Below are positions 7,360 through 17,953 of a DNA stretch of 64,000 bases, in pieces. Numbering within the stretch: the stretch's first letter is position 1; every line of letters starts with the position of its first letter. This DNA is from Armatimonadota bacterium (GTDB taxonomy: Bacteria; Sysuimicrobiota; Sysuimicrobiia; Sysuimicrobiales; Humicultoraceae). The notes under the pieces were generated by a model. That model ran no database searches. It was not told the origin of the DNA and was given only the letters and a program-made list of their open reading frames with translations. The DNA lies in the NCBI GenBank assembly GCA_031081715.1, contig JAVHMA010000016.1:1-64000 (forward strand). The letters run 5' to 3'. The translations under genes were made by a program, and so were the position numbers.

Positions 7360-8295
7360 CTACGCGACCCGCAGCCGCGCGTCCATCAGCCGGTAGCCGA
7401 TGTCGACCAGGGCGTTCGTGGCCACGACGAACGCGCCGGCGATGATCACCGCGCATTGGAGGACCGGGAAGTCGTGGCGGTTGGCCGCGTTGATCATCAG
7501 CTGCCCGATGCCCGGCCAGGCGAACACGACCTCGACTGCGAACGCCGCGCCGCCGAGCATCCGCACGTACTCCCAGCCGATCGTGGTCGCCACCGTGACG
7601 CTCGTGTTGCGCAGCACGTGCTTCCAGAGGATCAGCCGGTCGGGCAGCCCCTTGCTGCGGGCGACCATCGCGTAGGGCTTGGTCATCTCCTCGAAGGTTG
7701 CCGACCGCACCAGCAGGTGGATGCGCCCGCCGTGGACCACCGCCAGCGTGACCGCGGGGAGCACCAGGCTCTGCCACCCCGTAAACCCCGAGGTCGGGAA
7801 CAACTGGATGCGGACCGCGGCGACCGCGATGAGGATGAGACCCACCCAGAAGCTCGGCACCGAGACCGCGGCGACCGTGAGGAAGTTGGTCGCGCGGTCG
7901 AACCGCGACCCGGCCCAGAACCCGGCGAGCGTCCCGTTAATGCCGCCGAGCAGCCCGGCGAGCACGAGCGCGGTCGCGGTCAGCAGCAACGTGAACGGTA
8001 GCGCCTCGAGCACGATCGGGAGCGCCGGGCGGTACTGCCAGAGCGACTCGCCGAAGTCGCCCCGGAGCAGGTGGCCGAAGTAGTCCACGAACTGCACGTA
8101 CAGCGGCCGGTCGAGCCCGAGCAGCCGGCGCAGGTTCTCGATCTCCTCGGGCGTGGCGTCCACCGGCGACATGAGCGCCGCGGGGTCGCCCAGTCCGTAG
8201 CCCAGCAGAAAGATGACCACGGTAACCAAGAGCAAAATCCCCAGCCCGTCGCGAATCCGGGTGACCACGAACCGACCCGGCGACTGCGCGTGCAC
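7360..8295 (-). CDS. Peptide-type ABC transporter permease, DppB-like
   Basis: A 311-residue permease with an N-terminal TM (LGILLLVTVVIFLLGYG), a long periplasmic segment including LGLDRPLYVQFVDYFGHLL and DFGESLWQYRP, and five more TM segments. The EAA loop is seen in YAMVARSKGLPDRLILWKHVLRN. The GTG start at 8295 is preceded by GGAGGGA at a good distance. It follows the binding-protein gene after a strong hairpin, so its transcript level may be lower than that of the binding protein. Confidence 0.93.
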   Translation of the reverse strand: MHAQSPGRFVVTRIRDGLGILLLVTVVIFLLGYGLGDPAALMSPVDATPEEIENLRRLLGLDRPLYVQFVDYFGHLLRGDFGESLWQYRPALPIVLEALPFTLLLTATALVLAGLLGGINGTLAGFWAGSRFDRATNFLTVAAVSVPSFWVGLILIAVAAVRIQLFPTSGFTGWQSLVLPAVTLAVVHGGRIHLLVRSATFEEMTKPYAMVARSKGLPDRLILWKHVLRNTSVTVATTIGWEYVRMLGGAAFAVEVVFAWPGIGQLMINAANRHDFPVLQCAVIIAGAFVVATNALVDIGYRLMDARLRVA

Positions 8296-8317
8296 GCGAT
8301 CTCCCTCCAGGTGGGCG

Positions 8318-8350
8318 GCCGGCGCCGCGGGCCGAGCCCGCGGCGCCGGC
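8318..8350 (-). terminator. 15-bp perfect hairpin between binding-protein and permease genes
   Basis: Arms GCCGGCGCCGCGGGC and GCCCGCGGCGCCGGC surround a 3-base CGA loop, 12 bases after the binding-protein stop and 22 bases before the DppB start. No U-run. In known importer operons such a hairpin protects the 3' end of the binding-protein message and lets only part of the transcripts continue into the permease genes; that role is inferred here. Confidence 0.7.
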
Positions 8351-8361
8351 GTGCCGACGGC

Positions 8362-9897
8362 CTACCGCACCAGCCGCATATCGGCGATGCGGACCTCATC
8401 GTCCAGCCGGTTCCGCCACTGGATGCGGGCGGAGAGGCCGTAGATGAGATTCTGCTGCAGCAGGTAGATCGAGTACGGGTTTTCGTTCAGGATCTGCCAG
8501 ACCTGCTGGTACATCTCGTCGCGCGCGCGCTGGTCCACGGTGCCGTTCGCACGCGTCATCAGCTCGTCGATGCGCGGGTCACAGATCTTGCTAGAGGTGC
8601 CCCGGCACGTGATGTGCGCGATGATCCGGGAGCCGTCGAACCACTCGTTGGAGTTCCAGCCGTACTTGAGGTCGAAGGCGCCCGGCCGGTCGCCGGGGAT
8701 CCGTCCCAGGTTCTGGTAGGCGGTCCACTCGTGGAGCTGCACGCGCGCCTGGATACCGACCTGCGCGAGCTGCTGGGCCACGTACTCCGAAGTTTCCTCG
8801 CCCTTCAGGTAGCGGCCGATCGGCGTGTTGAGCACGACCGCGAAGCCCTGCGGGAAGCCGGCCTCGGCCAGGAGCTGACGGGCCCGCGCCGGGTCGTAGG
8901 GGAACGGGCGCAGGTTGGGGTTGAAACCCACCATGCCCGGGGAGAGGTGCTGGGACATGTTCGGTCGGGCGTGCCCCTGGTAGATGGTCCGCGCCAGGCG
9001 CTCCTTGTCCACCGCCAGGTTCATCGCGATCCGCACCCGCGGGTCGGCCATCTCGCGCTTGTGGGTGTTGAAGGCGATGTAGCTGTACTCGGGCGCCGGG
9101 TGCGAGACGTGCTTGGGCGCGAGCTGGATCTGCTCCGGGAGCAAGTCGAGGACGACGTCCACCTCGCCCGCCCGTAGCGCCAGCAGCTCGGTCTGCTTGT
9201 CCGGGATGATGCGGACGACCACCTCGCGGATCGTCGGCTTGGGCCCCCAGTAGTTGTCGTTGATCGCGATCCGCATCTCGCGGCCGCGCACCCACCCCAG
9301 GAACCGGTACGGCCCGGTGCCCACGGGCCGCCACGCGAAGTCCCGCTGCTGCGACGCCCGTGGCGGGACCATCGGGAGCGAGGTCATCTGGACCGGAAGC
9401 GTCGCGTTCACGCCGGAGGTAAGGACCTCCACCGTGTACTCGTCCACGACCCGCGCACCGGCGATGCCCACCGTGTAGGAGCCGCGCGTCGTGCGGTAGT
9501 TGCGGTCGATGATGCGGTTCACGCTGTAGGCCGCGACCTCGGCGTTGAACGGCTCGCCGTTGTGGAACGTGACTCCGCGCCGCAGCCGGAACCGCCAGGT
9601 CGTGGGGTTCACGGCCTCGTAGGACTCCGCGAGCAGCGGCACCAGCCGCCCGGTCCGGTCACGGTCGAGCAGGGTCTCGAAGATGTTCCCGCTCACCACG
9701 CGCGAGTGCCGGTCGTTGACGGCCTGCGCGTCGAGGGTCGCGGGCTCGGTCGTGATGGTGAGGACCACCGGGCGCGTTGCCGTCCCGGCGAAGGCGCCGC
9801 CGAGCTCCAGCCACGGCCCGATCGCCACGAGCGCCACCGCCAACCCGACCGCGGTCAGCACCGCGGCCCGCGGCAGCACGAGCTTGGACACTGGCAT
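8362..9897 (-). CDS. Peptide-type ABC transporter substrate-binding protein (family 5)
   Basis: A 511-residue extracytoplasmic binding protein (SBP_bac_5, DppA/OppA class). Residues 1-35 are a signal sequence (LPRAAVLTAVGLAVALVAIG, then GGAFAGTA); no lipobox cysteine is seen. The family pattern follows: TEPATLDAQ, LLAESYEAVNPTTWRFRLR, FHNGEPFNAE, GTGPYRFLGW, IAFNTHKREMADPRVRIAMN. The ATG at 9897 has GGGGGGTGA upstream. It is first in an operon with dppB-, dppC-, dppD- and dppF-like genes and may also be cotranscribed with the aromatic locus that ends 71 bases upstream. The aromatic neighbourhood leaves a non-peptide ligand possible. Confidence 0.93.
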   Translation of the reverse strand: MPVSKLVLPRAAVLTAVGLAVALVAIGPWLELGGAFAGTATRPVVLTITTEPATLDAQAVNDRHSRVVSGNIFETLLDRDRTGRLVPLLAESYEAVNPTTWRFRLRRGVTFHNGEPFNAEVAAYSVNRIIDRNYRTTRGSYTVGIAGARVVDEYTVEVLTSGVNATLPVQMTSLPMVPPRASQQRDFAWRPVGTGPYRFLGWVRGREMRIAINDNYWGPKPTIREVVVRIIPDKQTELLALRAGEVDVVLDLLPEQIQLAPKHVSHPAPEYSYIAFNTHKREMADPRVRIAMNLAVDKERLARTIYQGHARPNMSQHLSPGMVGFNPNLRPFPYDPARARQLLAEAGFPQGFAVVLNTPIGRYLKGEETSEYVAQQLAQVGIQARVQLHEWTAYQNLGRIPGDRPGAFDLKYGWNSNEWFDGSRIIAHITCRGTSSKICDPRIDELMTRANGTVDQRARDEMYQQVWQILNENPYSIYLLQQNLIYGLSARIQWRNRLDDEVRIADMRLVR

Positions 9898-9968
9898 CGT
9901 CACGTCACCCCCCCTTGAGGTGTCCTGCTGAATCGAGCGCCGTTCGATACCCATGGGCCCCGTCACGC

Positions 9969-10784
9969 TCAGAACTCCACGGTCGTGCTCTTCCACCGGG
10001 CGGCGCGTCGCTCGAGCGCCTTGAGCGACTCGCTGATCGCGGTGCCGATCAACAGCAGCGTGACGACCGGCACGAAGTACTTGGCGGTCTGGAACGTATT
10101 CCCGAACAGCGCCAGCAGGTGGCCCAGGCCCGTCAGCGCCGTGTAGAGCTCCGCGACCACGGTGCCGATGACCGCGAGCGCCGCACCGATGCGCAACCCG
10201 GTGACCACGTAGGGCAGCGCCGACGGGAGCATGATGTGGCGGAAGACCTGACTCTGCCGGGCGCCGAACGAGCGGGCGGCTTCGATGAGTCCCCAGTCGG
10301 TGTTCTGCACGCCCACATAGGTGTTGATGAGGATCGGGAAGACCGCTGTGAGCCAGACGATGACCACCTTGGCCTTGATGCCCAGCCCGAACCACAGCAC
10401 GATCAGGGGGATGAACGCGACCCGCGGCGTGGAGTTCATGGCGTGGACGAAGATCTCCAGGGTTTCACCGAACGGCCGGATGCCTCCCATCAGCACACCC
10501 AGCGAAACCCCGGTCAGGATCGCCAGGCTGTAGCCGCTGAACAGCACCGTCAGGCTGCTGGCGGTCGCGGCGAGGAGCTCACCGCTCCGCAGGAGCGCGA
10601 CGAACTGCGGCGCGACGGCGAGCGGCGAGGGTAGCAACAGCGCTCCCGCCGGGATCGACGCCACATGCCAGGCGCCCAGGATCATCCCCAGGGCGATCAG
10701 GCGCCAGGCGGTGACACCCAGCCGCCGGTGGCCGGCCGCGCGGACGCGCGGGGCGGGGAGAACCTGCGCGCGGTCAGTGCCCAT
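9969..10784 (-). CDS. SsuC/TauC-type ABC transporter permease
   Basis: A 271-residue inner-membrane permease of the nitrate/sulfonate/taurine/bicarbonate importer class. Six TM segments; the EAA loop is GLIEAARSFGARQSQVFRHIMLP, and STPRVAFIPLIVLWFGLG is the class signature. The ATG at 10784 overlaps the 3' end of the LigA-like gene by 11 bases. It works with the ATPase at 11066-11923 and the binding protein at 11952-13031. The aromatic genes around it suggest uptake of an aromatic acid or sulfonate, by inference. Confidence 0.9.
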   Translation of the reverse strand: MGTDRAQVLPAPRVRAAGHRRLGVTAWRLIALGMILGAWHVASIPAGALLLPSPLAVAPQFVALLRSGELLAATASSLTVLFSGYSLAILTGVSLGVLMGGIRPFGETLEIFVHAMNSTPRVAFIPLIVLWFGLGIKAKVVIVWLTAVFPILINTYVGVQNTDWGLIEAARSFGARQSQVFRHIMLPSALPYVVTGLRIGAALAVIGTVVAELYTALTGLGHLLALFGNTFQTAKYFVPVVTLLLIGTAISESLKALERRAARWKSTTVEF

Positions 10785-11088
10785 AGGCCTGGTCTCGCGC
10801 GCCCAAGTAGTAGTCGTAGAACGGGTTCGGCACACCCTGGAGCCGGGGCACGACCTCACGTACGTAGCGTTCCCGCGATCCAATCACGGTGGCGAAGTGG
10901 AACAGCAGGAGCGGGTGTGCGCCAAGCCGGTACAGCCTGACGAAGTCGGCGTGCTCGATCGCCCGGCGCTCCTCGGGATCGAGCGCCAGGCTGGCCAGCG
11001 CGCCGAAGTCGCCCGCGCGCACCGCGGCGCCGGCCTCACGGCTGGCGATCACACGGTGCAGGGCCTTACACAGGTCGTAGCTGCCCAT
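10774..11088 (-). CDS. LigA-like alpha subunit of an extradiol ring-cleavage dioxygenase
   Basis: A 104-residue protein resembling the small subunit of protocatechuate 4,5-dioxygenase (LigA). Recognisable features are YDLCKALHRVIA at the start, LALDPEERRAIEHADFVRLYRLGAHPLLLFHF in the middle, and a C-terminal GARDQAYGH-type end. In the family this subunit covers the active site of the catalytic LigB subunit. It is sandwiched between and overlaps both ABC genes (23 bases with the ATPase, 11 with the permease), an odd location about 2 kb from the LigB-like gene of the same operon. The start ATG 11088 was taken at the beginning of the conserved region. Confidence 0.82.
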   Translation of the reverse strand: MGSYDLCKALHRVIASREAGAAVRAGDFGALASLALDPEERRAIEHADFVRLYRLGAHPLLLFHFATVIGSRERYVREVVPRLQGVPNPFYDYYLGARDQAYGH

Positions 11089-11923
11089 GCGCCTCGTCGT
11101 CCCCCGGCCCCCCCAGCAACCAGGCAAACTCGGGTTGGTCCGCGACCATGCGGCGGATCCGCTCCCACAGATGCGCCCGCAACGCGACGAACTCGGACCG
11201 GGCGTGGAAGTCATACGTCCACCGGGGCCGCGGCAGCGGCACGGCCAGCACCTCTTCCACGGCCCCCGGCCGCGGCCGCATGAGGATCACCCGGTCCGCC
11301 AGGAACAGCGCCTCATCCAGACTGTGGGTGACGAAGACCACGGTCACCCGGTTCGCCTCCCAGATGCGACTGAGCGCGATCTGCATGAACTCACGGGTCT
11401 GCGCGTCCAGTGCCGCGAACGGCTCGTCCATGAACAAGATCTCCGGCCCCATCGCGAGTGCGCGGGCCAGGCCTACACGCTGCTGCATGCCGCCGGACAG
11501 CTCGTGCGGGTAGCGCTGCTCGAACCCAGCCAGGCCGACCATGCGGATGTACGTCGCCGCGCGCTGCCGCTGCTCGGCCGCGTCCTTGCCCTGGATCTCG
11601 AGGGGGAAACGCACGTTGTCGAGTACCGTCCGCCATGGCAGCAGCCGGTACGACTGGAACACGAAGCCGGCGTGCGGGCCTGGCACCGGTGGCCGCGTGC
11701 CGTCGATGAGAATCTGGCCGCGGTCGATCGGGATCAGCCCGCTCATCATCCGCAGCAGGGTCGTCTTGCCGCACCCCGACGGCCCCACCAGGCAGACGAA
11801 CTCGCCGGGCATCACCGCGAACGTAACGTCGCGCAACACCTCGATGCCGGCCGCCTGGCCCTGGTCGCCCCGGCCGAACCACTTCCCGACGGCACGGACA
11901 TCGATCTTGGGAATGGTGGTCAC
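11066..11923 (-). CDS. SsuB/TauB-type ABC transporter ATPase
   Basis: A 285-residue nitrate/sulfonate/taurine-class ATPase. Walker A GPSGCGKTT, Q-loop VFQSYRLLPWRTV, signature LSGGMQQRVGLARALA, Walker B ILFMDEPFAALD and H-loop VTHSLDEA are complete. The C-terminal end (WTYDFHARSEFVALRAHLWE) is typical of the SsuB/TauB branch. The start is GTG 11923, 28 bases after the binding-protein stop. The last 23 bases overlap the LigA-like gene. Confidence 0.92.
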   Translation of the reverse strand: MTTIPKIDVRAVGKWFGRGDQGQAAGIEVLRDVTFAVMPGEFVCLVGPSGCGKTTLLRMMSGLIPIDRGQILIDGTRPPVPGPHAGFVFQSYRLLPWRTVLDNVRFPLEIQGKDAAEQRQRAATYIRMVGLAGFEQRYPHELSGGMQQRVGLARALAMGPEILFMDEPFAALDAQTREFMQIALSRIWEANRVTVVFVTHSLDEALFLADRVILMRPRPGAVEEVLAVPLPRPRWTYDFHARSEFVALRAHLWERIRRMVADQPEFAWLLGGPGDDEAHGQLRPV

Positions 11924-11951: not shown

Positions 11952-13031
11952 CTACCGGATCTGCCGCCCGGGACTGTCGAACCGCCCGTACACGCCGATC
12001 TCCTTCAGCACCGCGTCGAGGAACCGCGTATCCGCCCAGTCCCACACCGGGATTTTGGGCACCTGTTTGAAGTCATCGGTCTGGTAGAGGAAGTCGGCGG
12101 TCCGCACGTACTCGCCGAGGTTCATCAGCCCGTTGACCGCCCACGATGTCCGGTAGATGTCCCACAGGTCGCCGAGCTCCGGCCGGCCGATGTCGGTGCG
12201 ACGCCTGGCTATGGCGTCCACCCAGGCCGCCTTGTTCTCGGCGAAGTGCCGGCTGGCCTTGACGATCGCCGCGGTGAACGCGCGCACGACCTCGGGCCGC
12301 TCCCGCGCGGTCCGGAGCGTCACCGCGTTCACCTTCTGCACCAGGGGCGCGGCGTTGTGAAACGCCTCGTGGTCGAGCAGGACCTTGATGGTGCGGGCGG
12401 TCCGCACGGTCATCCATGTGCCGACCGAGAACGTCGTGGCGTCCACGCGGCCGGCCACCACCGCCTGCGCGCGCACCGACGGCGCCCCGACGCCGACGAA
12501 CCGCAGCTCGTTAGCGCCGATGCCGTGTTGCGCCAGCACGAGCTCGGTGAGCGAGTAGTCCAGGCTGCCCAGGCGCGCAACCGCGTAGGTCCTGCCTCGC
12601 AGGTCTGCCACGGCGCTCAGGTCCGGCCGCGAGACGATCTGGAAGTACAGCCGGGCGTCGGGCGAGTGGATCGCGCGCAAATCCAGGCTCCGGGTCGCGA
12701 CGAGCCGGATGACCTCCTCGGTCGCCACGTTGCCGATGTCGAGCTCGCCGGTGCGCAGCGCCGTGAGGATCGGCGGCGTCCCCTGGACCTCCACCACGTC
12801 GACGTCGAGCCCCTCGCGCTCGTAGAAGCCCAGGTCTTTGGCGAGCCAGAGCACCGAGTTGGGCAACAGCGCGACCGGCGTCGAGGCGACCCCCAGCCGC
12901 AGGCGGATCAGCCGCGGCGCCGCCGCGCCCTCCTGGGGCACGAGCAGGCCTGCGACCCACGCGAGACAGACCACCGCCAGCACCATCACCCACACCGCCC
13001 GGGCGCTCCTCCTGCGCGACATCGTCGTCAC
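11952..13031 (-). CDS. SsuA/NMT1-type ABC transporter substrate-binding protein
   Basis: A 359-residue extracytoplasmic binding protein. The N-terminal signal sequence has a basic n-region and the core VWVMVLAVVCLAWVAGLLV. The mature fold has LGVASTPVALLPNSVLWLAKDLGFYEREGLDVDVVEV and GELDIGNVATEEVIRL, typical of SsuA/NMT1-like proteins. The GTG start at 13031 is preceded by GAGGAG. It is the ligand-capturing component for the ATPase and permease downstream. Ligand unknown; an aromatic carboxylate or sulfonate is the contextual guess. Confidence 0.9.
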   Translation of the reverse strand: MTTMSRRRSARAVWVMVLAVVCLAWVAGLLVPQEGAAAPRLIRLRLGVASTPVALLPNSVLWLAKDLGFYEREGLDVDVVEVQGTPPILTALRTGELDIGNVATEEVIRLVATRSLDLRAIHSPDARLYFQIVSRPDLSAVADLRGRTYAVARLGSLDYSLTELVLAQHGIGANELRFVGVGAPSVRAQAVVAGRVDATTFSVGTWMTVRTARTIKVLLDHEAFHNAAPLVQKVNAVTLRTARERPEVVRAFTAAIVKASRHFAENKAAWVDAIARRRTDIGRPELGDLWDIYRTSWAVNGLMNLGEYVRTADFLYQTDDFKQVPKIPVWDWADTRFLDAVLKEIGVYGRFDSPGRQIR

Positions 13032-13061: not shown

Positions 13062-13892
13062 TTACGACCACCACCACGCCGCAAACGGGCACGCGCCCCA
13101 CGCCGGGACCTGATGGAACTCCAACAGGTCCGGCGGCCGGGTGCCCACCACGCCGAGCAGCATGTCGTAGTTGAGGAACTCCACGGTGGAGTTGCCGGCG
13201 GCGTACAGCCGCTCGACCGTGATCGCCAGCAGATCGTCCACGCGGCCGGCCCGCATCAGCTCGAGCACGGCCCGGTCGAAAGCCTCATCGCGCTGCCCCA
13301 TTCGCGGTCCGCCGACGTCCAGCGAAAGGTTGAATGACGCGATCACCGCTACCCGCGCGTCGTCGGGCCGCTCGCGCACGGCACGGTGGATGAGCGCACC
13401 CACCTCGTAGAAGCGGTGCGGCGAGGGCAGCGGGTAGACGAACAGGTTGGTGAAGATCGGGACGATCGGCAGGTCGGCCTCGGGCCGCAGGCCCGCGAGC
13501 GGCACGCAGAACGCGTGGTCCAGGTCGAACTCGCGCGCCTGCGCCAGGTCGATGTTCCCCCTAAGGCCCGCCTCCAGCAGGTGACCGGCGAGCCCGACGT
13601 CCACGACCGCCTCGTAGCGCGGGATGCGCATGATCTCGGCCTCGTACCACAGCGGGCCCCGGGCGCGGGGCGCCAGGCCCACGCAGAACGGCGAGACATG
13701 GTCGAGAAAGAAGGTGTCCAGGTGGTCGTCGCCGATGACGATCAGCCGGTCAGGGCGCGCCTCGGCCAGTCGGCGGCGGAGCGCGTCGAAGACCGCGTCG
13801 AGGGCCTCCCGCGAGGCACCATCCGCCGCGTCGCGGTTCCAGAAGATGCGCGGGTTGTGCGTCGTCGCGATCGCCGCGACCACGGTCCCCAT
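13062..13892 (-). CDS. LigB-like catalytic subunit of an extradiol dioxygenase, catalytic His apparently replaced
   Basis: A 276-residue class III extradiol dioxygenase-like protein. His12 (ATTHNPR), His57 (GDDHLDTF) and Glu238 (TVEFLNYD) fall where LigB of protocatechuate 4,5-dioxygenase has its iron ligands (H12, H61, E242). The region that usually reads GGLSH, holding the acid-base His195, reads FNLSLDVGG here, so the catalytic His seems to be Leu191. The protein also contains EFDLDHAFCVPL. It may cleave a different substrate, act by another proton donor, or have another reaction. ATG 13892; same operon as the LigA-like and Rieske genes. Confidence 0.85.
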   Translation of the reverse strand: MGTVVAAIATTHNPRIFWNRDAADGASREALDAVFDALRRRLAEARPDRLIVIGDDHLDTFFLDHVSPFCVGLAPRARGPLWYEAEIMRIPRYEAVVDVGLAGHLLEAGLRGNIDLAQAREFDLDHAFCVPLAGLRPEADLPIVPIFTNLFVYPLPSPHRFYEVGALIHRAVRERPDDARVAVIASFNLSLDVGGPRMGQRDEAFDRAVLELMRAGRVDDLLAITVERLYAAGNSTVEFLNYDMLLGVVGTRPPDLLEFHQVPAWGACPFAAWWWS

Positions 13893-13924: not shown

Positions 13925-15169
13925 TCAGAGCGTGATCGGCCGCGCCTGGGCCCGGTGCGCCTGCCGCTCGGCCTCGGTGATCCACCGCTCGTAGGCGGTG
14001 ATCTCGATCAGCTCGTTCTGCGCCGGGTCGCGCACGGTGCCGATCGGATCGCGCCCAGCCCGCACCTTCTCCACCTCGCGCAGGTACATCGTCCGCAGCA
14101 CGAACATGCCGAAGTCGCCCTGCGGGTGCAGGTACTCCTTCTCGCGTTCGACGATCGGGCCGAGGCTGTCGATCAGGGTGGCGTCCTCGGTCGCGACGAA
14201 CCGCGGGATCGTGTACCCGAGGGTCACCGACCCGTCCTCGTTGCGGTGCTTGTACTCCTTGTAGGGCTCCACCGTGACCGCCTTCCACACCGGCGGCAAC
14301 GGGTCGCGCACAAACCGCCCGGGGTTGTCCGCGGGCTTGAGTGTGCAGCGCAGAATGAGCGTGGTCGTGTCGTCGATCGGCACGCTCCACCGCGCGCTCA
14401 TCAACGGTGTCCCCGCCGAGCCTTCCACGTAGCGCCCCGGTGTGCCGCCGCAGCTGATGCCCGGGAACAGCAGGTGGTGCTCCCGGTAGTTCCACCGGCC
14501 GTCCCGTTCCGGCCGGTAGGCCTTGTGAACCAGGCCCCACGGCGTCTCCTCGAAGAACATGTCGGGCTCGACGTCGAGGCCCTCCAGCGAGGTGCCGCCG
14601 TGCGTGTAGGCGACGTGCAGGGGGTCCATGCCGTTCTCTACGCACTGGAGCCAGTTGCAGTTCGAGATGCCGGTGATCTTCGCGTGGCGCTCGCCCGGCG
14701 CGGCCAGGAATTGGAAGCGGGGCAATAGCGGCGCCGGCTGCGGCCCCAGGTAGGCGAAGATCAGCCCCCCGAGCTCCTGCACCGGGTAGGCCAGGTGCTG
14801 CACGCCCGCCATGTAGGCCTCGGGGTCCGGTACCTCCTTTGGCACGTAGACGAGCTTCCCGGCGACGTCGAAGGTGAAGCCGTGGTAGCGACAGCGCAGG
14901 TCCTCGCCCACGACGTTCCCCAGGCAGAGGTTCGCGCGTCGGTGCGGGCAGTAAGCGCCCAGCAGGCCGGCCTTGCCGCTCTTGCCCCGGAACAGCACCA
15001 GGTCTTCGCCGAGGACGCGGATGAACGTCGGCTTCTCCTTGAGGTCCGCGGAGACCCCCACGGGCCACCAGTAGCGCCGCAGCAGCTCGCCCATCGGCGT
15101 GCCGGGCCCCACCCGGGTCAGGATCTCGTTCTCTTCCTTCGTCGTGCCGCGCAGCTGGAGCATTTTCAT
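13925..15169 (-). CDS. Rieske non-heme iron oxygenase, phthalate 4,5-dioxygenase type
   Basis: A 414-residue oxygenase component. Its N-terminus has LTRVGPGTPMGELLRRYWWP, characteristic of the phthalate-4,5-dioxygenase/vanillate-demethylase branch. Rieske [2Fe-2S] ligands are in CPHRRANLC and CRYHGFTFD (residues ~75-100). The mononuclear iron site is NGMDPLHVAYTH near residue 185. It would hydroxylate or O/N-dealkylate an aromatic ring and needs a reductase, which is not in the window. ATG 15169 chosen (a second Met lies two codons on). The LigA/LigB genes in the same operon make ring hydroxylation before cleavage the likely role. Confidence 0.92.
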   Translation of the reverse strand: MKMLQLRGTTKEENEILTRVGPGTPMGELLRRYWWPVGVSADLKEKPTFIRVLGEDLVLFRGKSGKAGLLGAYCPHRRANLCLGNVVGEDLRCRYHGFTFDVAGKLVYVPKEVPDPEAYMAGVQHLAYPVQELGGLIFAYLGPQPAPLLPRFQFLAAPGERHAKITGISNCNWLQCVENGMDPLHVAYTHGGTSLEGLDVEPDMFFEETPWGLVHKAYRPERDGRWNYREHHLLFPGISCGGTPGRYVEGSAGTPLMSARWSVPIDDTTTLILRCTLKPADNPGRFVRDPLPPVWKAVTVEPYKEYKHRNEDGSVTLGYTIPRFVATEDATLIDSLGPIVEREKEYLHPQGDFGMFVLRTMYLREVEKVRAGRDPIGTVRDPAQNELIEITAYERWITEAERQAHRAQARPITL

Positions 15170-15204: not shown

Positions 15205-16179
15205 CTACACCGCGGCCGGGGCGGCGTCGAGCGCCGGGTCCCACGACCGCAGCAGCCGCAGGTCGTGCATGGCTTCCTTCAGGAAGGTGAAGTTGTAGTA
15301 GGCGTGGATCGGCCGCGGGGGCAGGTTCCACTCGCGGGTGTAGATCTCCACCTTGCGTTCGTAGGGTTCCGGGGTCGTCGGTGGGACCCAGTCGTCGTGG
15401 CAGATCGTCCACACCTCGGCGGCGCGCTCGCGGGTCATTCGGGCGTCGTGCCGCAGCACACAGTCCAGCGTCTCCTCCCGGTTCTGCCGCGCGAACTCCA
15501 CGCCCCGCAGCACCGCGCGCACCATCCCGCGGACCACGTCGGGGTGCCGCTCGATGACCTCGGGCGAGGTGCCGATCCCGGCCTCCGGCAGCTCGAGCAG
15601 GTCGCGCGCTGAGGCCAGGCGTCGGCCGCCCATCGCCACGGCCTCGTTCCAGTGCGGCGGGTCGCAGCAGACCGCGTCGAGTTCCCCGCGGTCGAACAGC
15701 GCCAGGCGGTAGCGCTCCGTGTCCGGCGGCTGGCCCCGGCTGTCCACCCAAGTCAGCTCCGCGGGGTCCACCCCGAAGTGCCGGAGCGCGATCTTGGCGT
15801 CAATGCCCGACCCGCCCTTGAAGTCCGCCCCGATCCGGCGGCCGCGCAGGGCCGCGTGGTCAGCGATCTCGGGCCGGGCCACCAGGACGTGCGCGGTGTA
15901 CCGCGCCACGGAGATGACGTTGACTTCCTGGTCGCTGCGATCGCGGCCTTCCAGGACCGAGCGGAAGGGCCCGGACCCACACGGCGACGCGAAGACCAGC
16001 CGGCCTTCTCGCCGCCACTGGAACCGGGGGTGCTCGCCCTGGGAGCGGAAGACCGCGGCAACGTCGACCTCGAGCCCCTCCTCCCGGAAGAACCCCTTGT
16101 CCAGGGCGACCCACAGCGGGGTCAGATTGATGGGGAACGCTGGAACGAAGACGACAACAGGAGCCCGCAACGCGCCCAC
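15205..16179 (-). CDS. NMT1/THI5-fold protein without signal peptide (binding protein or decarboxylase-like enzyme)
   Basis: A 324-residue protein of the periplasmic-binding-protein fold (LTPLWVALDKGFFREEGLEVDV near the N-terminus). It starts directly in the fold with no signal peptide. It should therefore be cytoplasmic, unlike the secreted binding protein at 11952-13031. THI5-type pyrimidine synthases and 4,5-dihydroxyphthalate decarboxylase are, to my knowledge, enzymes with related folds that are often mis-annotated as transport proteins. Since the next gene is a phthalate-dioxygenase-type Rieske oxygenase and LigAB-like subunits follow, an enzymatic role is attractive but unproven. GTG 16179 with GGAAGG upstream; first gene of the minus-strand operon. 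Confidence 0.75.
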   Translation of the reverse strand: MGALRAPVVVFVPAFPINLTPLWVALDKGFFREEGLEVDVAAVFRSQGEHPRFQWRREGRLVFASPCGSGPFRSVLEGRDRSDQEVNVISVARYTAHVLVARPEIADHAALRGRRIGADFKGGSGIDAKIALRHFGVDPAELTWVDSRGQPPDTERYRLALFDRGELDAVCCDPPHWNEAVAMGGRRLASARDLLELPEAGIGTSPEVIERHPDVVRGMVRAVLRGVEFARQNREETLDCVLRHDARMTRERAAEVWTICHDDWVPPTTPEPYERKVEIYTREWNLPPRPIHAYYNFTFLKEAMHDLRLLRSWDPALDAAPAAV

Positions 16180-16265
16180 AGAACACCTTCCCTGTGCACC
16201 CGGCCGGCTGGCGGTGGCCCGGGTACTCGCTGGTCAGGACTTTGGATGCAGTATACGATGCGCGG

Positions 16266-17093
16266 ATGGGTCTTCCTCCTTTGACGGCCGGCCAGTTCGT
16301 GGAGGCCGCGGGGATCCGGACCTTCTACCTGCGGGCGGGGCACGGCCCGGCCGTGCTCCTGATCCACGGCGCCGGCCCGGGCGCCTGCGCCCAGGTCGTC
16401 TGGAAGCCCACGATCCAGCCGCTGGCCGAGGCCGGCTTTGCGGTGTACGCGTACGACCAGCCGGGGTTCGGGCACAGCGCGAGCCCGGCGGACCACGGCA
16501 TGGAGTTCCGCGTAACCCATGCCCGGGCGGTCATCGCCGCGCTCGGCCTGGGCCGCGTGCACCTAGTCGGCAGCTCGATGGGCGCCTACATCGCCGCGCG
16601 CCTCGCGCTGGAGGAACCCCGGGCAGGCCGGCTCGTGCTGGTGGCCAGCAGCACGCTGGCACCCGCGGGCTCGGAGGCGGCCGCGACGCGGGCGCGCGCG
16701 CATGCCCAGGAGCTGCGTGACTTCGCCCCGAGCCGCGAGGCGATCCGCACGCTCACGCTGAGCACGGTCTTCAACCAGGCACTGGTGACCGACGAGCTCG
16801 TCGAGGAGCGGCTGGCGATGAGCCTGGGCCCACGGCAGGAGGCGCACGCGATGCGGCGGCAGGCCGGCCGGCCGCGGCCGCTAGACAGCGAGCTGGCGCG
16901 CCTGGCCACGCCGACCCTGATCGTCTGGGGCCGCAACGACGCGGGCGCCGCGGTCGAGCGCGCCCCGCTGCTGCAGGCCTTGATCCCGGGCTCCGAGCTG
17001 CACGTCTTCGACCGCGCCGGGCACTGGGTGCAGTGGGATCAGGCCGCGCGGTTCGTCACGCTGGTCGCCGGGTTCCTTCGCGAAAACTCCTAG
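16266..17093 (+). CDS. Alpha/beta hydrolase, MhpC/BphD-like (meta-cleavage product hydrolase)
   Basis: A 275-residue alpha/beta hydrolase. The oxyanion motif HGAGPGACA is the version found in C-C bond hydrolases such as BphD and MhpC. The nucleophile elbow is GSSMGAY (Ser near residue 105), the acid is probably in IVWGRNDAG, and the catalytic His lies in RAGHWVQWD. In the family it splits ring-opened vinylogous diketones from extradiol cleavage. It is divergent from the oxygenase operon and leads a plus-strand group with AspDH-family and MFS genes. TATACG at 16252-16257 lies nine bases before ATG 16266, suggesting a very short or absent leader. Confidence 0.88.
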   Translation: MGLPPLTAGQFVEAAGIRTFYLRAGHGPAVLLIHGAGPGACAQVVWKPTIQPLAEAGFAVYAYDQPGFGHSASPADHGMEFRVTHARAVIAALGLGRVHLVGSSMGAYIAARLALEEPRAGRLVLVASSTLAPAGSEAAATRARAHAQELRDFAPSREAIRTLTLSTVFNQALVTDELVEERLAMSLGPRQEAHAMRRQAGRPRPLDSELARLATPTLIVWGRNDAGAAVERAPLLQALIPGSELHVFDRAGHWVQWDQAARFVTLVAGFLRENS

Positions 17094-17143
17094 CGCGACC
17101 GGATCAGGGCGATTTGGCCGCAATCAGAAGGGACGGATGCCAG

Positions 17144-17953
17144 GTGCGAGTAGGGCTGCTGGGGTGCGGGGCCATCGGAACGTTCGTGCTCGAGGCGGCG
17201 GCCGCCGGGCTCACCGGCGAGGCGCGGATCGTGGCCGTGGGCGGCCGCCCCGCCTCGCCGGCCCGCGAGGTGGCCGCGCGCTTCGGTGTGCCGTACGTGG
17301 CGCCGGAGGCGTTGCCCGACTGGGACCTCGCCGCGGTGGTCGAGGCCGCCGGGCACGCGGCGCTGCGGGCGTACGGGGCCGGCTACCTGCGCCGCGGCCT
17401 GGCGCTGGTCGCGCTCAGCGCGGGTGCGCTGGCCGACGACGCGCTGTACGCCGAGCTGGAGGCGGCCGCGCGCGCGGGGCGGACCCGCATCTACGTGCCG
17501 TCGGGCGCGATCGCTGGCCTCGACACCGTCGGCGCGCTGACGGTCGGCGGCGAGGGCCGCGTAACCATCACGACGTCGAAGCCGCCGGCCGCCTGGCGGG
17601 GTATCCCCTATGTGGACGACCTGAAGGTGGACCTGGACGCGCTCGCCGCCCCGCGCGTCCTCTACGAGGGCGAGGCGCGACGCGCGGTCGCGCTCTTCCC
17701 GCAGAACGTCAACGTGGCCGCGGCGCTCAGCCTGGCTGGCCTCGGACTGGACCGGACACAGGTGCGCGTGGTCGCCGATCCGGGGATTGTCCGCAACACA
17801 CACGAGATCGATGTGGACGCCCCGCGTGGTCGCCTGCACCTGCGCGTGGAGAACGTGCCGACCCCGACCAACCCCAAGACCGGCTACCTGGCCGCGCTGA
17901 GCGCGGTCGCGGCGCTGCGCAAGCTCGCCGGCCCGTGGTGGGTGGGGGTGTAG
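17144..17953 (+). CDS. L-aspartate dehydrogenase family protein (NadX-like)
   Basis: A 269-residue NAD(P)-dependent oxidoreductase matching the aspartate dehydrogenase family in length and motifs. These are the Rossmann GLLGCGAIG, PSGAIAGLD, TTSKPPAAWRG, FPQNVNVAAALSLAG, NTHEIDV (likely catalytic His) and TNPKTGYL. Known members oxidise L-aspartate to iminoaspartate or run the reductive amination. The GTG start at 17144 is taken because the Rossmann fold begins at once; upstream in-frame sequence lies in the hydrolase gene. Placement after a ring-cleavage hydrolase suggests an imine- or amine-bearing aromatic breakdown product, an inference only. Confidence 0.85.
   Translation: MRVGLLGCGAIGTFVLEAAAAGLTGEARIVAVGGRPASPAREVAARFGVPYVAPEALPDWDLAAVVEAAGHAALRAYGAGYLRRGLALVALSAGALADDALYAELEAAARAGRTRIYVPSGAIAGLDTVGALTVGGEGRVTITTSKPPAAWRGIPYVDDLKVDLDALAAPRVLYEGEARRAVALFPQNVNVAAALSLAGLGLDRTQVRVVADPGIVRNTHEIDVDAPRGRLHLRVENVPTPTNPKTGYLAALSAVAALRKLAGPWWVGV

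Follow-up and report, generated by a model that had tools for sequence, protein, structure and literature searches.

How may a protein of the LigB family proceed with its chemistry when the histidine that its classical counterparts use as a catalytic base has been replaced by a leucine? The question is raised by a gene at positions 13062 to 13892, on the minus strand, of the window, by which we mean the whole stretch of 64,000 nucleotides that was analysed. The gene begins with an ATG at 13892, ends with a stop codon at 13064-13062 and encodes a protein of 276 aa, P0001. In the classical enzymes, the equivalent of LigB His127 binds one hydroxyl while that of His195 is the base at the other; as described in the excerpts of PMC3962378 on which we rely, this catalytic base is His192 in DesB and His179 in MhpB, and the His124Phe and His192Phe variants of DesB had undetectable activity (<0.01 vs 116 U/mg). 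A sequence-only reading of the locus had proposed that the iron-ligand equivalents H12, H57 and E238 were in place in P0001, that leucine occupied the acid-base position and that the enzyme might use a different proton relay or reaction.

As far as family and fold are concerned, P0001 scores 107 bits against the Pfam model PF02900 (LigB), over a cut-off of 26.3, along residues 7-266. It matched ten NCBIfam models, those of protocatechuate 4,5-, gallate and 2,3-dihydroxyphenylpropionate dioxygenases among them, and stays below the cut-off of every one (best 111.9 of 290). The nearest sequences with a solved structure are DesB, LigB and MhpB. The LigB fold is present in the AlphaFold2 model (mean pLDDT 83.9), which is matched over its full length, most closely by DesB (Z 32.1, 266 residues, 2.3 A) and also by LigB (Z 31.0, 271 residues, 2.6 A).

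The details of the active site come from an alignment to LigB (1b4u_B) obtained by hmmsearch with a profile of P0001 and its ten close relatives. H12, H57 and E238, the predicted metal residues, pair with His12, His61 and Glu242, as had been proposed, and H126 pairs with His127, the second active-site histidine. The altered motif lies within S186-D192 (SFNLSLD, codons at 13317..13337, minus strand), where F187-N188-L189-S190-L191 pairs, without any gap, with G191-G192-M193-S194-H195: N188 is found in place of Gly192 and L191 in place of His195, so that the histidine of the GGLSH/GGMSH motif is absent and the leucine first read at this position is borne out. All ten relatives carry valine there, and the loss is thus neither a sequencing error nor a private mutation; misalignment or a sequencing error as its cause is excluded by the ungapped alignment together with these relatives. 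P0001 has eight histidines (12, 57, 65, 104, 126, 159, 169 and 260); across the 11 aligned rows only H12, H57 and H126 never vary and, since each of them already has a classical counterpart, none is left in the same chain to replace His195. The two observations that could have overturned the first reading, a region misaligned as judged from homologues and a nearby histidine in the role of His195, were both looked for: the homologues gave no misalignment and, by sequence, no histidine of the chain stands in. The rest of the site is tightly kept, the two-His-one-Glu metal residues being invariant in 11/11 sequences and T11-D21, D125-H126 and S186-F187-N188 strictly conserved in 11/11. Within the first of these stretches, residues 18-21 of the model have a pLDDT <50, and may become ordered once substrate or partner binds.

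The ten relatives (48-50% identity), retrieved by a search of genome contigs that reaches close relatives only, come from Rhodospirillales, Rhodospirillaceae, Defluviicoccus, a Rhizobium, an unclassified alphaproteobacterium and an Eremiobacterota bin. All combine Val at LigB 195 with Asn at 192 and a retained Glu242; we term N-type the proteins with Asn at 192 and Glu242 kept. More distant relatives were drawn from plasmids and further genomes, 13 regions being read that were chosen among the listed rows of 192 and 186 matching plasmid records. In the resulting table of 48 proteins, a set assembled by searching with P0001 or its relatives and not drawn at random from PF02900, residues 192/195/242 read G/H/E in 25 rows, N/(V or L)/E in 11, H/(L, N or V)/G in nine, S/L/E in one (L048), S/H/H in one (L014) and G/H/gap in one (MhpB, its sequence cut short). 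Duplicates (L001, L032, L033, L053, L055-L057) and weak or short matches (L007-L012) were left out; near copies subsist among the N-type rows (L026-L029, L024/L025).

A tree was built, with the motif columns removed, from 46 of these proteins (L006 and L014 omitted). The 21 that lack His195 form a single clade (support 98/91), made up of the 11 N-type rows, P0001 included (monophyletic, 99/97), of a sister H-type group of nine (L017-L021, L047, L049, L050 and L054; monophyletic, 100/96) and of one row with Ser at 192. In the H-type, His195 and Glu242 are both lost and histidine stands at 192 in 9/9, possibly as part of a new metal site; L020, one of the nine, is a plasmid protein of Aminobacter MSH1. 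The equivalents of His12, His61 and His127 are kept in all 21 rows, and Glu242 is missing only in the nine H-type ones. His195 requires one change on this tree, and a single loss in the common ancestor of the clade is the best explanation. The two active-site histidines are lost together in 0/48 rows, a weak indication because, on the tree, His127 accounts for three changes and His195 for only that one. In five pairs of relatives (three of them sharing L026, the window gene having no near pair), dN of 0.017-0.095 is to be set against dS of 0.15-0.75, which indicates purifying selection on those relatives. The proposal of another proton relay or reaction for P0001 is a reasonable one, partly supported, and it gains strength from the fact that a trait of a whole clade under purifying selection meets a DesB His192Phe variant with no detectable activity.

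How the gene reached its present host is a separate matter. It is the only PF02900 gene of the window genome; among 43 genomes of the phylum, matches of this type at 1e-10 were found in that genome and in one other (G016), whose protein is classical, with GGLSH, and there was no match at 1e-10 in ten other genomes of the family. Acquisition by transfer may be at work. Sampling around three genomes (G000, G126 and G168) yielded a single further genome with members of the clade, G363, whose N-type locus (L053) was set aside as a duplicate of L030.

The gene sits in an operon that reads, along the minus strand, NMT1-type substrate-binding protein (15205..16179; PF09084, 46.1 bits), Rieske oxygenase directly upstream of the LigB-like gene (13925..15169, start codon assigned here; PF00355, 61.7 bits), P0001, a second, NMT1/SsuA-type substrate-binding protein (11952..13031; PF09084, 71.7 bits), ABC transporter ATPase (11066..11923; PF00005), LigA-like subunit and ABC transporter permease (9969..10784, start codon assigned here; PF00528). 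Overlaps reach at most 23 bases and gaps at most about 35, figures that vary with the starts chosen. A divergent alpha/beta hydrolase gene (16194..17093, plus strand), for which the best NCBIfam model is HsaD at 157 bits, below its cut-off of 400, is presumably linked to the operon. Ring-cleavage pathways, too, have a Rieske oxygenase with an alpha/beta hydrolase nearby, and the whole set agrees with a route by which an aromatic or heteroaromatic compound is taken up, oxygenated, ring-opened and hydrolysed. Directly after the hydrolase gene lies an aspartate-dehydrogenase-like gene (17126-17953, plus strand; PF01958, over one NCBIfam subfamily cut-off) that could point to a nitrogen-containing substrate, and the operon is followed by a second uptake system, a peptide/nickel-type binding protein (SBP_bac_5) with a DppB-like permease (7360-9900, minus strand).

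The transporter is common to the window and 6/10 relatives, its second binding protein, ATPase and permease each being found in 6/10 N-type loci. Also found near the relatives are DUF2848 (8/10), Amidohydro_2 (seven), HbpS-like (six), CN-hydrolase (five), LysR (five) and gamma-glutamyltranspeptidase-like (four) genes; flank lengths differ, hence the absence of a neighbour means little. Several recur together in L022 (8596-12820) and L026 (720-8103), where gamma-glutamyltranspeptidase-like, Amidohydro_2, HbpS-like and DUF2848 genes are accompanied by CN-hydrolase, luciferase-like monooxygenase and alpha/beta hydrolase genes, and these recurrent neighbours resemble an undescribed catabolic pathway, perhaps one for an amide or N-heterocycle. 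A Rieske gene lies near 1/10 N-type relatives: a relative of the window gene (29% identity) is about 4.6 kb from the LigB-like gene of L030, another (29% identity) immediately precedes the H-type gene in L054, and the other loci, many of them with no more than 1.5 kb of flank, gave no match when searched with the window Rieske protein. In L054, genes for a Rieske oxygenase, an H-type LigB-like protein and a LigA-like protein are consecutive (172-2642), in a genome that also has an N-type copy (L053, the same as L030). Several H-type loci adjoin citryl-CoA lyase and CoA transferase genes.

If a function has been lost from one chain, it may be sought in another. The LigA-like gene of the operon (10774..11088, minus strand) encodes P0002, a protein of 104 aa that scores 24.8 bits against PF07746, just short of the cut-off of 25.3. 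Its model (pLDDT 84.4) had no Foldseek match at E <= 0.001, the nine best matches being DesB chains (E 0.65-2.7), and its alignment to DesB falls on residues 316-396, the LigA-like domain (81 residues, 2.2 A, Z 9.5); for helical proteins a Z of this size may arise by chance, the advised level being about 13. Searches of solved structures with the sequence of P0002 or its alignment did not find LigA. A LigA-like homologue is located upstream of the LigB-like gene, at 2 to 874 bases, in 10/10 N-type relative loci, and LigA-like proteins likewise accompany the other LigB genes that were read (40 loci in all). According to the part of PMC10094722 used here, the active site of LigAB is at the subunit interface, where it is reached by LigA Phe103; gallate touches Glu377' in DesB and, in the complex of its His124Phe variant, Asn387' (PMC3962378, in excerpt). 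By alignment, Glu73 of P0002 comes at LigA Phe103 (DesB Asn387') and His64 at LigA Lys94 (DesB 378, adjoining Glu377'). The 11 N-type sequences all have His11, His64, Arg72 and Glu73, and the two histidines with the Arg-Glu pair are found in 10/10 N-type loci vs 0/30 others. This makes H11, H64, R72 and E73 candidates for an acid-base role that the partner chain would play in place of His195; the correlation is no more than suggestive, since the N-type is one clade, hence one event.

We can then understand P0001 and P0002, with moderate confidence, as a working two-subunit non-haem Fe(II) oxygenase encoded by a catabolic operon, predicted to be most likely of the extradiol, ring-cleaving type, with an altered proton relay; its substrate would most likely be an imported aromatic or heteroaromatic compound. 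H126 would still position and deprotonate one substrate hydroxyl, whereas at the second position a hydrophobic Leu or Val would stand in place of the acid-base histidine; Asn at 192 may hydrogen-bond near the metal, and the second proton transfer could proceed via water, via the substrate itself or via H11, H64, R72 and E73 of the LigA-like subunit. O2 activation at Fe(II) and ring cleavage would most likely be retained. Speaking for this account are the LigB family and fold, the metal residues, the His127 counterpart, the grouping in one clade, the partner gene and an operon with Rieske and uptake genes. Against it one must count the dead DesB variant without the equivalent histidine (PMC3962378, in excerpt), the missed NCBIfam dioxygenase cut-offs, and the amidohydrolase, DUF2848, HbpS-like and gamma-glutamyltranspeptidase-like neighbours of the relatives, which are no textbook meta-cleavage set, as well as the Rieske gene near only 1/10 N-type relatives and a partner with a Pfam score below its cut-off and a Z of 9.5 within the range of chance for helical proteins.

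The chief rival, possible but distinctly less probable, is that the clade performs a different metal-dependent reaction, not extradiol cleavage, that needs no acid-base residue at 195: the breaking of a C-C bond in an enol or a diketone, for example, or a hydrolytic or decarboxylating step. Residue 195 being a catalytic base without which the mutant is dead (PMC3962378, in excerpt), its loss would be readily accommodated by such a change, and the H-type sister is also without Glu242 (9/9); the partners of the relatives, amidohydrolase, CN-hydrolase and DUF2848, with citryl-CoA lyase and CoA transferase for the H-type, point the same way. Yet His12, His57 (LigB His61), the His127 equivalent and, in the N-type, Glu242 have been kept, the LigA-like subunit has been retained, and in the window the operon has a Rieske oxygenase, with an alpha/beta hydrolase close by, as in ring-cleavage pathways.

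A bolder extension of the preferred oxygenase account, which we regard as doubtful, would have this LigB branch rebuild its active site around position 192: the N-type would have moved acid-base function to the partner (H64, H11 or R72-E73) and the H-type would use His192 as third ligand, both pursuing O2 chemistry without His195. In MEMO1, as excerpted from PMC11081632, D189 and H192 are close to the iron but are not ligands of it, and a Cys takes the place of Glu242. These two residues are spaced as LigB 192 and 195, and might by analogy be equated with them; position 192 would then face the metal, in which case the H-type His192 could be a ligand and N188 could contact the bound oxygen or the substrate. 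Three-histidine sites do exist in the LigB fold, in BvDOD and YgiD, where the third histidine corresponds to Glu242 (PMC11926856, in excerpt). Were this extension true, N-type catalysis would be shared by two chains, and the H-type would have reached a three-histidine site by a route other than that of the DOPA dioxygenases.

We find it improbable that P0001 is a pseudoenzyme that binds metal or ligand with catalysis lost, as has been argued for MEMO-like proteins. A residue said to be essential has indeed gone (PMC3962378, in excerpt), and MEMO1 offers a precedent with a retained iron site and, as far as the excerpted part of PMC11081632 goes, no dioxygenase activity found, but the catalytic setting of the operon, with its transporter and oxygenase, the strict conservation of the active-site surroundings in 11/11 sequences and the low dN/dS argue to the contrary. 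That a local shift would bring another histidine of the same chain to the place of His195 in three dimensions is very improbable indeed: the H-type does have a histidine three residues earlier (LigB 192, 9/9) and a C-terminal histidine is nearly conserved (column 259, 10/11), but the clade of the window has Asn at 192 in 11/11, the alignment to LigB is ungapped, and in P0001 the C-terminal histidine (260) is one residue out of register.

Judging from its sequences, then, this branch probably does its chemistry another way. No description of a LigB clade devoid of His195 was found in the literature, nor any paper on an extradiol enzyme with citryl-CoA lyase, within a search of open-licence papers only, which makes weak evidence of absence. 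A natural clade that lacks His195 while retaining metal site and partner is a ready experiment on the role of that histidine; it points to catabolic pathways that are unannotated, and the coupled changes at 192, 195, 242 and in the partner lead to concrete, testable predictions.

It is worth placing the pair among known systems. With LigAB, protocatechuate 4,5-dioxygenase (1B4U, 1BOU), it shares the fold, the metal residues, His127 and a separate LigA-like subunit; it differs by Leu/Val for His195 and Asn for Gly192, with P0001 at about 21% identity, and by Glu for Phe103 and His for Lys94 in the LigA-like subunit. DesB, gallate dioxygenase (3WR8 and related), is the best structural match, and the top NCBIfam matches are among gallate/class III models; DesB, however, carries its LigA-like domain in a single chain and requires His192 (LigB His195), whereas the window has a separate subunit and lacks that histidine in P0001. 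Loss of one active-site histidine is a feature shared with the PydA-like proteins L045 and L046 (a label assigned here from gene order and host plants), with other LigB groups (L002/L034/L037/L038/L040/L044 and L004/L013/L035/L036/L039/L041-L043) and with the beta subunit of 2-aminophenol dioxygenase, but there it is His127 that is lost (to Asn, Asp or Tyr) and GGLSH that is kept where it was read, the reverse of the clade of the window. In the rows L002, L004, L013, L015, L034-L046 and L051, His127 is replaced by Asp, Asn, Tyr or Glu and GGxSH is kept. That the altered motif be common to PydA-like dihydroxypyridine dioxygenases is excluded, the two loci having GGLSH and Asn at His127. Finally, an altered third metal ligand is known in this fold (PMC11081632, PMC11926856, both in excerpt): 4,5-DOPA dioxygenase BvDOD, YgiD and MEMO1 have the fold of P0001 and replace Glu242 by His or Cys while they keep the equivalent of His195, whereas P0001 has neither His nor Cys there, retaining the glutamate as E238, and it is His195 that it has given up.
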